Shown here one piece after another: positions 30,283 to 32,613 of a stretch of DNA of 64,000 nucleotides. The notes under the pieces were generated by a model. It was given only the letters and a program-made list of their open reading frames with translations. It was not told where the DNA came from and searched no databases. Numbering within the stretch: position 1 is the stretch's first letter; every line of letters starts with the position of its first letter. A program made the position numbers and the translations under genes. The DNA is from Burkholderiaceae bacterium (GTDB lineage Bacteria; Pseudomonadota; Gammaproteobacteria; Burkholderiales; Burkholderiaceae_E), in NCBI GenBank assembly GCA_023954045.1, contig JAMLIR010000008.1, positions 84,594 to 148,593 of the forward strand. The letters run 5' to 3'.

Positions 30283-30591
30283 TGGCTCCCCGACCTGGGC
30301 TCGAACCAGGGACCTGCGGATTACAAGTGCCCGGAAGTTTCCAACCGGCTTGGACTTTCTCTTCGCCTTGGCGAACGATTCGCTTGCGCGCTTCGACCAC
30401 GTTAGGCGCACCCCGTAAAGTCTCTACACATGCCCGGCGTCGGTCTGGGACCTGAGCCTGCTTGCTCGGGATTGCCTTAGCGCACTGCGCCTTAGGGTTC
30501 CCCGAATTAGGGGTGTTTTCACCACACGGTTTCCCGCGTGGGCTGCCATCAAGTTAACAGTCCGTCGCTCTACCGACTGAGCTATCGGGGA
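30283..30591 (-). tRNA. tRNA-Asn(GUU) interrupted by a group I intron
   Basis: The exons are 30591-30557 (35 nt: acceptor TCCCCGA, D arm GCTC/GAGC, half of the anticodon arm) and 30323-30283 (41 nt: rest of the anticodon arm, T arm CCTGG-TTCGAGC-CCAGG, acceptor TCGGGGA, G73 and encoded CCA). Joined they make a 76-nt tRNA with anticodon loop CTGTTAA, hence GUU. The intron lies between U35 and U36. Unspliced, the gene is unreadable by simple tRNA patterns, and the 3' half alone falsely suggests a UGU anticodon. The first anticodon-stem pair is A27-C43. No promoter is seen in the 13 nt separating it from the nuclease gene, so transcription must begin upstream. Confidence 0.95.
30324..30556 (-). 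ncRNA. Group I intron (tRNA IC3-like), 233 nt, no internal ORF
   Basis: The intron begins after exon U35 and ends in G (30324), as group I requires. P1 forms from exon GGACUGU and the internal guide GCAGCCC, with the U-G pair at the splice site. P2 is CACGCGG-GAAA-CCGTGTG. P3 pairs CACCCC with GGGGTG; P4 pairs TCGGG with CCCGA; P5 is GCGC-AGT-GCGC; P7 pairs GACTTT with AAAGTC. Core segments AATTCGGGGAACCCTAAGG and GTGTAGAGACTTTACGG closely resemble the Azoarcus tRNA-Ile intron. It is small, like other bacterial tRNA introns, and should self-splice. Confidence 0.93.
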
Positions 30592-30604
30592 ATAATCTGC
30601 AATT

Positions 30605-31057
30605 CTAGCTTGAGATGCCTGCGCGTGTCGAATCGTCGGACGCGCCCAGGAGGAAGCTCGCCGCCATGCGCGTCCGTTTCACCTGACCATTTCGCGCCTG
30701 TCCAACACGAAGACGAGCTTCCCGTCGACATCCCTCCAATGCACCGATGGGGACCAGGTAGACGGAGTCGGTCTCGGGACAATAGACGCCAAACGCATCG
30801 ACGTCTCCGTGGTAGTCGCGCCGCCCGAGTCCGCGGTGGTTTGCGCACGAACATACCGGGAATGCGATGGAGCCCTTGTCGTCCAGTCGCCCAGTCTTGC
30901 ACTGGACGCGCAAGAGGCACTGCCCATCGTCGACGACCAGGTCGTAGCGAAGGTTGTCGCCGAACGGAAGGCTTACGGCGTAGCCGCTCTCGAGCAGGCG
31001 CGTGAGGGTTCGCGCGACGCCCAGTTCGCCGATCGATTTCGTGTTCGCGCGCGGCAT
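30605..31057 (-). CDS. PD-(D/E)XK homing endonuclease, group I intron-associated type
   Basis: 150 aa. NTKSIGELGVARTLTRLLES, PFGDNLRYDLVVDD and LLRVQCKTGRL match the intron-associated PD-(D/E)XK family whose founder is I-Ssp6803I of a cyanobacterial tRNA-fMet intron. Probable active-site residues are E11, D39, Q52 and K54 (the Q-x-K variant of D/E-x-K). C-terminal RRDYHGDVDAFGVYCPETDSVYLVP is also conserved in that family from memory. Unlike the founder it is not inside the intron: it ends 13 nt before the tRNA-Asn gene on the same strand. No Shine-Dalgarno is visible; the start codon lies in the arm of a LexA-type palindrome. Confidence 0.85.
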   Translation of the reverse strand: MPRANTKSIGELGVARTLTRLLESGYAVSLPFGDNLRYDLVVDDGQCLLRVQCKTGRLDDKGSIAFPVCSCANHRGLGRRDYHGDVDAFGVYCPETDSVYLVPIGALEGCRREARLRVGQARNGQVKRTRMAASFLLGASDDSTRAGISS

Positions 31058-31059
31058 GA

Positions 31060-31079
31060 TACTGAAAATGCATACAGTA
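31060..31079. promoter_or_regulatory. LexA/SOS box at the endonuclease start codon
   Basis: The minus strand reads TACTGTATGCATTTTCAGTA. It matches TACTG-(TA)5-CAGTA fully in both arms and fits CTG-N10-CAG. The palindrome extends to 10-bp arms CATGATACTG and CAGTATCATG (31055-31084), so the ATG is in one arm. It lies in the 39-bp gap after the aminotransferase. A bound repressor would block transcription or its start. No -10 and -35 pair is clear. Confidence 0.82.
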
Positions 31080-31096
31080 TCATGCGCGCCCGCAAG

Positions 31097-32308
31097 TCAC
31101 CCCTTGATCACCGCCGCCATCGCCTTCGCGACGTAATCGATGTTGCGGCTGTTCAGCGCCGCGAGGCAGATGCGGCCGGTGCTGACCACCGCGTAGATGC
31201 CGAACTCGTCGCGCAGGCGCTCGACCTGCGCCGGGTTCAGCCCGGAGTACGAGAACATCCCCCGCTGTCGCGCGACGAACGAGAAGTCCTGCGTGACGCC
31301 GTTCTCGCGCAGCTTGCGCACCAGGTCTTCGCGCATCGTGCGGATGCGATCGCGCATGCCCGCGAGCTCCTTCTCCCACAGCTGGCGCAGCTCGGGTGTC
31401 GACAGCACCGCCGCGACGATCGCGGCGCCGTGCGTCGGCGGGTTCGAATAGCTGGTTCGGATCACGCGCTTGACCTGGCTGACGACCCGCGCGGTCTCGT
31501 CGCGATCGGCGGTGACGATCGACAGCGCGCCGACGCGCTCGCCGTACAGCGAGAACGACTTCGAGAACGAACTCGAGACGAAGAAGTCGAGGCCGGAGTC
31601 CGCGAACTTGCGCAGCGCCAGCGCGTCGGCGTCGATGCCGTCGCCGAAGCCCTGGTAGGCCATGTCGAGGAACGCGACCAGGTCGCGCTCGCGCACCGCG
31701 TCGACGATCGCGTCCCAATGCGCGGCTTCCAGGTCGACGCCGGTCGGGTTGTGGCAGCACGCGTGCAGCACGACCACCGAATGCGCCGGCATCGCCCGCA
31801 GCGTCGCGAGCATCGCGTCGAACTTCACGCCGTGCGTGGCGGCGTCGTAGTACGGGTAGGCCTTGACCTCGAAGCCCGCAGCCTCGAACAGTGCGCGATG
31901 GTTCTCCCAGCTCGGGTCGCTGATCCAGGCCTTCGCGTCCGGGTGCAGCCGCCGCAGGAAATCGGCGCCGATTCGCAGGCCCCCGGTCCCGCCCAGCGCC
32001 TCGAAAGTCGCCACGCGGCCGGCCGCCAGCAGCGCGGAATCGGCGCCGAACAGCAGTTTCTGGACCGCCTGGTTGTACGCCGCGAAGCCCTCGATCGGCA
32101 GGTAGCCGCGCGCCGGCGCGCTGACGATGCGTGCCTTCTCGGCCTCGCGCACTGCAGCAAGCAGCGGGATGCGCCCGTCGTCGCCGCAGTAGACGCCGAC
32201 GCCCAGATTCACCTTCCCGGGGCGGGTGTCAGCGTTGAAAGCTTCGGTGAGGCCCAGGATCGGATCCCGGGGCGCCATTTCCACGGTGGCGAACATCGAC
32301 TGGCTCAT
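31097..32308 (-). CDS. Aspartate/aromatic aminotransferase
   Basis: A 403-aa class I PLP enzyme of the AspC/TyrB group. MFATVEMAPRDPILGLTEAFNAD is the usual opening. HACCHNPTGVD and the lysine region SSSFSKSFSLYGERVG are complete, and TSYSNPPTHGA with the substrate arginine further on (STGRICLAALN) follows. It makes aspartate, tyrosine or phenylalanine from their 2-oxoacids. Two starts are possible, at 32308 and 32296. It diverges from uvrB and its stop lies 39 bp from the endonuclease start. Confidence 0.92.
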   Translation of the reverse strand: MSQSMFATVEMAPRDPILGLTEAFNADTRPGKVNLGVGVYCGDDGRIPLLAAVREAEKARIVSAPARGYLPIEGFAAYNQAVQKLLFGADSALLAAGRVATFEALGGTGGLRIGADFLRRLHPDAKAWISDPSWENHRALFEAAGFEVKAYPYYDAATHGVKFDAMLATLRAMPAHSVVVLHACCHNPTGVDLEAAHWDAIVDAVRERDLVAFLDMAYQGFGDGIDADALALRKFADSGLDFFVSSSFSKSFSLYGERVGALSIVTADRDETARVVSQVKRVIRTSYSNPPTHGAAIVAAVLSTPELRQLWEKELAGMRDRIRTMREDLVRKLRENGVTQDFSFVARQRGMFSYSGLNPAQVERLRDEFGIYAVVSTGRICLAALNSRNIDYVAKAMAAVIKG

Positions 32309-32613
32309 GGCGATCGGACAAGTCCTTGTTTTTCGGGGGAAGGGGCGTCGAAAGATTAGGTGCGTTGCACAAATTCCGTGCAGAACACTGGATTTTCGGG
32401 GGCGGCGCGGCGATAATTTGGGTTTGTCCGAAAGGCCAGCGGAAGCCTTCCGGTGACAGATCCTCGTACCCTGCAGGGAACCCGTCGACCGGTTCCCGGA
32501 TCGTCCGATCCGGGCGCCAAGCTGCGATTGTGCGGTGCAGCGACACGGGGACGGCAGGCCATCCGAAAACGCGCCGAGTTTAGCACGCCGACCTGGGCCT
32601 CCCGACCGACACG
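32309..32613. other. Divergent aminotransferase/uvrB intergenic region with overlapping hairpins
   Basis: No gene. Two hairpins share bases: GGGAACC (32476-32482) with GGTTCCC (32491-32497), and CCCGGATCG (32495-32503) with CGATCCGGG (32506-32514). They cannot form together. I looked for a CTG-N10-CAG LexA site ahead of uvrB and found none. AT-rich GATAATTTG around 32414 may belong to a promoter. Confidence 0.45.

Follow-up and report, generated by a model that had tools for sequence, protein, structure and literature searches.

The locus described here lies in a 64-kb stretch of DNA (the window, which is the whole stretch that was analysed), and it raises the question of whether LexA, the host SOS repressor, controls a nuclease gene of the homing endonuclease family, and whether that nuclease serves the group I intron beside it. 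A palindrome at positions 31055-31084 reads CATGATACTG-TATGCATTTT-CAGTATCATG on the minus strand (31084->31055) and features perfect 10-bp arms with 10 nt between them. The final three bases of the palindrome are the ATG (31057-31055) of the open reading frame at 30605-31057. The original prediction had described such a palindrome, with 10-bp arms that take in the start codon, and it is present as described. The candidate LexA operator within it is the 20-base box TACTGTATGCATTTTCAGTA (31060-31079, minus strand), which is proposed from its matrix score and from the boxes of orthologous genes. This box ends 2 nt before the nuclease ATG, and its core, CTGT-N8-TCAG, has a single deviation from CTGT-N8-ACAG, the palindrome of beta- and gamma-proteobacterial LexA operators.

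The gene downstream of the box (30605..31057, minus strand) encodes 150 aa and was assigned as a free-standing PD-(D/E)XK nuclease gene of the I-Ssp6803I family (PDDEXK_5) from PF11645, the structure 2OST, Foldseek, and dN/dS. The match to PF11645 scored 126.1 bits (E 1.3e-36) with a cut-off of 26.1. The best solved relative by sequence profile is 2OST (I-Ssp6803I) with an E of 2.4e-10, and the next matches are CysN/CysC chains (8e-4). A structural model of the nuclease was predicted from 14 sequences with a mean pLDDT of 81.9, and was used in place of an earlier 5-sequence model that was poor (mean pLDDT 63). Foldseek searches with this model also gave 2OST as the best match (E 4.3e-10, TM 0.69), and Holliday-junction resolvases and SPARDA nucleases are among the weaker fold matches. 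Residues D39 and Q52-x-K54, which we take to be the catalytic residues of the family, are present in the window nuclease and are conserved across the copies, with the exception of K54, which is an arginine in the Zeimonas arvi nuclease locus (L021). That nuclease (L021:1408-1908) features QCR at the Q-x-K motif, and its LexA box is intact. Taken from sequence and model, the predicted product of the window gene is an I-Ssp6803I-family (PDDEXK_5) nuclease.

The nuclease gene lies between an aminotransferase gene and an interrupted tRNA gene. The upstream neighbour (31097..32308, minus strand) is a class I/II aminotransferase gene (Aminotran_1_2, 274.1 bits), which we take to be of the aspC/tyrB type. 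Downstream, ARAGORN found no tRNA in the window when introns were disallowed and found a tRNA-Asn(GTT) at 30591-30283 when they were allowed. The 5' exon of 35 nt (30557..30591, minus strand) and the 3' exon of 41 nt (30283..30323, minus strand) were assigned from this search and from relatives, three of which have an uninterrupted tRNA-Asn. The exons are separated by an ORF-less, probable group I intron of 233 nt in the anticodon loop (30324..30556, minus strand), which was assigned from RF00028 and from intronless alleles in the genus. Group I introns are spliced with a U at the 5' site and an omega-G at the 3' end, and the intron was placed by this rule between tRNA nucleotides 35 and 36, the exact site being inferred. 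RF00028 aligns along the whole of the window intron at 45.8 bits (E 3e-10), which does not reach the gathering score of 50. At that score, the introns of three genus loci (L037, L040, and L044) gave no match, and introns from outside the genus in L028 (58.2 bits) and L094 (64 bits) matched. The nuclease frame ends 13 nt before the tRNA gene (30283-30591) and lies outside it. No frame that could encode a nuclease of this length is present in the 233-nt intron, and the nuclease is free-standing. The original prediction had taken the gene for the nuclease of a group I intron, and an intron-encoded nuclease is ruled out by this arrangement, in which the gene stands outside both the tRNA gene and the ORF-less intron.

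The tRNA gene appears to have a promoter of its own. A promoter was assigned by eye at 30602..30631 (minus strand), with a -35 hexamer TCGACA (30626-30631) and a -10 hexamer TAGAAT (30602-30607). This -10-like TAGAAT opens with the nuclease stop codon, whose three bases (TAG, 30605-30607) make up its first half, and TCGACA lies 18 nt upstream. By eye, a TATAAT-like hexamer is found 8-12 nt before the tRNA in 15/15 genus loci and TCGACA in 11/15. The presence of these hexamers before the tRNA gene suggests that tRNA-Asn is most likely transcribed from a promoter of its own, and its supply should therefore be independent of LexA. The loci L020 and L021 feature a -10 without the TAG, and their nuclease reading frame continues into the tRNA.

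Whether the box is a LexA site was assessed with several motifs. The bare CTGT-N8-ACAG core with one mismatch occurs 4 times in the window versus 10.5 expected and is not significant alone, and the E. coli LexA consensus with up to 3 mismatches gave no match in the 64-kb window. A matrix was built from the 15 distinct 20-mers of the lexA and recA promoters of the genus, with the nuclease sites excluded. These 20-mers come from the best core site in the 200 nt that precede the matched start of the gene, in 15 lexA and 17 recA loci. The lexA set leaves out L066 and L067, which are weak matches in G072, and the recA set leaves out the C-terminal pieces L081 and L082 and the weak matches L086-L093; of the 18 genus genomes, 3 gave no lexA and 1 gave no recA. 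A site that keeps 7 or more of the 8 core bases is present in all of the lexA (15/15) and recA (17/17) genus loci, and the CTGA/TCAG half that sets the window box apart is common to all 17 recA operators. With this matrix, taken from lexA and recA promoters only, the window box scores 22.2 bits and the runner-up in the 64 kb scores 5.9. When the window was simulated 200 times with a first-order Markov model, 0 of 12,796,200 positions reached 17.5 bits, and the highest scored 15.3. The full genus motif is significant because of the gap between 22.2 and 5.9 bits and because no simulated position reached 17.5 bits. The original prediction had proposed that the box be scored against the LexA motif of its own genome, and the motif fits the box.

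A pattern written from the box was also searched across the genome (4.02 Mb). The window box ranks first with 0 mismatches, and next come the sites that precede an error-prone DNA polymerase gene (1 mismatch), recA (2 mismatches), and a PA0069-family radical SAM gene (2 mismatches). The lexA site of the genome has 3 mismatches to this pattern and is level with four unrelated places. Up to 3 mismatches, the search gave 12 rows versus 17 in a reversed control, which is no excess, and only its first entries are informative because the total matches are no commoner than in the control. In 252 kb of genus loci, which overlap and were partly selected for such sites, those of at least 17.5 bits lie at lexA, recA, the error-prone polymerase gene, the PA0069-family gene, the nuclease gene, and one place in G072. 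The G072 site (L067, 1426-1445) is a LexA-type site of 22.1 bits that adjoins a weak LexA-like match, which may represent another repressor or a phage regulator. At 32309-32613 of the window, uvrB, which is an SOS gene in E. coli, has no LexA site upstream. A LexA site serving uvrB is ruled out, since no second site in the window scores above 5.9 bits.

The box is conserved with the nuclease gene in the genus of the window genome, to which Zeimonas arvi belongs; Zeimonas is a betaproteobacterium of the Burkholderiaceae. Among 74 genomes of the family, 7 gave a PF11645 match, and 6 of these 7 belong to the genus. Five of the genus copies are intact, namely those of the window genome (G000), Zeimonas arvi CC-CFT501 (G057), Lautropia sp. 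SCN 69-89 (G060), and two MAGs (G069 and G073), and one is truncated (G068). The loci L024-L027 come from the same contigs as L018-L021 and were counted once. The box is found at the start codon in 5/5 intact genes. Its 20-mer reaches into the nuclease ATG by a single base, the A, in L018, L020, and L021, and stops 14 nt short of that codon in L019; these are the two extremes of its position. The orthologous boxes score 32.5 bits in L018, 29.9 in L019, 27.6 in L021, and 17.5 in L020, which is the weakest. In G068, the N-terminal part of the nuclease and the box are both gone. Synonymous divergence among the nuclease genes is near saturation (pS 0.54-0.76), and dN/dS values of 0.08-0.19 in 9 of 10 pairs where they were computable point to purifying selection on the protein. 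The spacers that follow the aminotransferase stop codon are unalignable by eye across the copies. We infer from the sequences that the box is maintained by selection, because 5/5 intact copies have it despite this synonymous divergence and the unalignable spacers.

These comparisons also bear on whether the palindrome is a LexA site at all. A chance palindrome, an aminotransferase terminator, or an RNA hairpin could be read from the 10-bp arms, which lie just past the aminotransferase stop codon, and from a chance-level match of the palindrome to an Rfam microRNA family (E 0.42). However, the 10-bp arm extension is peculiar to the window genome, and the other four copies repeat the LexA arms only. 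Two of the boxes feature symmetric outer arms (AAC..GTT and TGC..GCA), in which the dyad is kept. No T-run follows the palindrome, the matrix score is beyond that of the simulation, and the box stays at the nuclease start in copies that differ in how far it lies from the aminotransferase stop codon. A microRNA or other RNA hairpin and an aminotransferase terminator are ruled out as candidates on the ground that the long arms are not conserved in the orthologues, and this group of explanations as a whole, chance included, is exceedingly improbable. The palindrome at 31055-31084 is very probably a LexA operator. The claim that a homing endonuclease gene begins with a LexA operator can be kept in the form of an operator at the start of a gene of that family, as indicated by the motif and by 5/5 orthologues, and the conservation check proposed with it bore this out; the part that does not stand is that the gene is intron-encoded.

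The distribution of the parts in the genus shows how the nuclease and the intron are associated. The tRNA-Asn gene was found in 15 of the 18 genus genomes and was not found in the other 3. It is interrupted by the intron in 12 of the 15 and uninterrupted in 3 (G058, G061, and G064). It always follows the aminotransferase gene, as judged by an 8-base marker of the 3' end of that gene, which lies 72-604 nt upstream in 15/15 loci. The nuclease gene adjoins an intron-bearing tRNA-Asn, directly upstream of it, in 6/6 genus copies, one of which is truncated. Among the 15 genomes with a tRNA-Asn, the nuclease is intact in 5 and is found as a remnant in at least 2. G071 has a C-terminal remnant of 48 aa (58% identity, E 1e-12) beside an intact intron, G068 has the truncated nuclease beside an intact intron, and G059 perhaps has a short nuclease tail. 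The intact nuclease is missing from 7 of the 12 intron-bearing genomes. PF11645 gave no match in the three intronless genomes, and the statement that the nuclease is absent from them is based on this profile. Searches of these genomes with L021 as the query gave short or weak matches only (30 aa in G058, 17 aa in G061, and 30% identity in G064), which were rejected as nuclease remnants, since the tail of L021 reads through the tRNA promoter and the 5' exon.

Vertical inheritance explains most of the genus pattern, because the locus never changes in the genus and 7 of the 12 intron-bearing genomes are without an intact nuclease. One case points to movement of the intron. By the aminotransferase gene, G073 pairs with the intronless G064 (support 1.0), whereas the G073 intron (L051) is 95% identical to the introns of G057 (L037) and G059 (support 0.98). 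The aminotransferase genes of G057 and G059 are 80-81% identical to that of G073, and other pairs at about the same aminotransferase distance have introns that are 81-88% identical. The nucleases of G073 and G057 share 75% amino acid identity, which is far below the 95% of the introns, and for this reason the intron and the nuclease were not clearly transferred together. The result is consistent with a likely horizontal transfer of the intron, without an equally recent transfer of the nuclease. Another genus of the family has a tRNA-Asn intron (L122, in G025) that is 79% identical to that of the window, and this genome has no PF11645 match.

These features suggest that the putatively LexA-controlled, free-standing nuclease and the ORF-less tRNA-Asn intron probably form a two-part homing element under host SOS control in Zeimonas. 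Another explanation accepts the LexA operator as real and holds that the nuclease is now a host SOS enzyme of repair, recombination, or defence that no longer takes part in homing. SOS regulons consist mostly of repair genes, the nuclease is under purifying selection at one fixed locus, and the weaker fold matches to Holliday-junction resolvases and SPARDA nucleases would also fit such a role. However, the nuclease always sits beside an intron-bearing tRNA-Asn in the genus, is decaying in at least two sister genomes, was not found in most, and has relatives in or beside other tRNA genes, and its best match by both sequence and fold is the homing enzyme I-Ssp6803I. This explanation is improbable, and the two-part homing element is the preferred reading.

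The operator suggests how such an element would work. LexA bound at the nuclease start would block transcription and keep the gene silent, and DNA damage, or single-stranded DNA that enters by conjugation, would remove LexA so that the nuclease is made. The free-standing nuclease is presumed, from the adjacency of the two, to target the insertion site of the intron, and it would probably cut intronless tRNA-Asn alleles at the anticodon region. Repair from an intron-bearing chromosome would then copy the intron, and conversion of the flanks would bring the adjacent nuclease gene with it, while the intron would shield its own allele from the nuclease. The further proposal is that homing of the intron by a trans-acting nuclease is timed by SOS, that damage or incoming single-stranded DNA couples cutting to recombination capacity, and that this is the first LexA-controlled homing endonuclease; we hold this proposal to be evenly balanced. 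The SOS response could be used as a cue for the recombination peak or for incoming single-stranded DNA, or LexA could simply be a convenient silencer, and sequence cannot separate these three.

The closest known system is I-Ssp6803I of Synechocystis (2OST), which is of the same family, has the same fold as that predicted here, and is likewise associated with a tRNA group I intron. We take I-Ssp6803I to be encoded inside a tRNA-fMet group I intron, for which it is the homing endonuclease; its specificity for tRNA-fMet was reportedly the subject of Bonocora and Shub (2001). To our knowledge, an intron-encoded location is not true of all PDDEXK_5 members. The window differs from the Synechocystis system in that the gene lies outside the intron and upstream of the tRNA, the tRNA is tRNA-Asn, and a LexA box lies over the start. 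The timing of homing nuclease production has, as far as we know, been studied in few systems, and a literature search from which subscription journals were mostly absent found no homing endonuclease under LexA or SOS control. Collaborative homing has been reviewed, and SOS and LexA are absent from the main text of that review (PMC3984707). As in the window, collaborative homing involves a free-standing nuclease beside an ORF-less intron with a presumed common target site, whereas the window features a bacterial chromosomal tRNA gene and apparent control by the host SOS repressor. In phage T4, the homing endonuclease I-TevI is reported to repress its own transcription (PMC3943268). Its operator is at the start of a homing endonuclease gene, as in the window, but I-TevI is its own repressor and in the window the host SOS repressor would act. 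Integron integrases are reported to be controlled by LexA, with a box that can overlap the -10 in beta- and gamma-proteobacteria, and this control has been read as SOS-timed recombination (PMC3108266). These integrases are also DNA-mobility enzymes under a LexA box, but they are site-specific recombinases and not homing endonucleases. An ISCR transposase has been reported to be SOS-regulated (PMC13393415); it is a mobile-element enzyme induced by SOS, but it is a transposase and no intron is involved. A conserved LexA operator, if true, would tie intron homing to the peak of homologous repair, as has been proposed for integron integrases. Across sister species, one of which is the cultivated Zeimonas arvi, the locus is found intact, decayed, and empty, and it is suited to testing.

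Relatives of the nuclease outside the genus show a similar arrangement without the box. L028, L029, and L094, from betaproteobacteria or the order of the window, feature a nuclease gene followed by an intron-interrupted tRNA gene and have no box. ARAGORN calls tRNA-Asp in L028 and L094, whereas the U/omega-G splice reads tRNA-Asn, and L029 is cut by the contig end. In 17 relatives outside the genus, no LexA box was found from 200 nt upstream to 50 nt downstream of the start of the nuclease match, the best site scoring 11.9 bits. These 17 had a defined match start, and one of them (L030) had 4 nt upstream only; L104/L107 and the phage regions L108-L111 were left unscored by the matrix. Three loci (L023, L101, and L103) have no site of at least 17.5 bits anywhere. 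Sites of this strength do occur away from the match in AT-rich relatives, with one each in L099 and L106 (about 800 nt off), two in L036, and one in L105, and the specificity of the matrix is limited to GC-rich genomes because of such chance sites. L100 has a 7-of-8 core 134 nt before the nuclease match. SOS control as a family-wide trait is unsupported, given that the 17 relatives reach 11.9 bits or less at the nuclease start, and in the sample examined the predicted LexA box at the nuclease is a genus trait.

That relatives outside the genus do without the box agrees with an explanation in which the main benefit of the LexA site is the silencing of a costly nuclease, for which LexA is a ready-made repressor, and in which SOS induction is a side effect with no role in homing. 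However, the intron already blocks the target on the chromosome, so little standing toxicity is to be expected; a conserved operator is compatible with either reading. Silencing as the main benefit is unlikely.

Beyond the genus, the PDDEXK_5 gene is found with several other tRNA genes. In four loci of the wider class (L099, L100, L101, and L104), a PDDEXK_5 frame is apparently inside a tRNA-Arg(TCT) intron. ARAGORN spans three of these introns, the one in L100 was read from the sequence, and the frame in L104 is broken; none of the four introns reaches the Rfam gathering score for group I. No tRNA was found near the nuclease match in L030, L095-L098, L105, and L106, and no relative of the nuclease was found on plasmids. 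Proximity to tRNA genes is common in the PDDEXK_5 family on the evidence of these gene neighbourhoods. The nuclease gene of L103 ends just before an uninterrupted tRNA-Arg(TCT), and together with the intron-borne loci this gives both states of one tRNA. In the haloarchaea L032 (2765-3622) and L033 (2786-3565), the PDDEXK_5 gene is bordered by a tRNA-Asp gene on each side, an arrangement that looks like the duplication or flanking of a tRNA target by a free-standing homing nuclease. The viral contigs L035 and L036 and the phages L108-L111 (4 of the 23 phage records that matched) have a PDDEXK_5 gene in tRNA-rich stretches, and in the four phages a tRNA gene adjoins it, overlaps it, or is 25-70 nt away.
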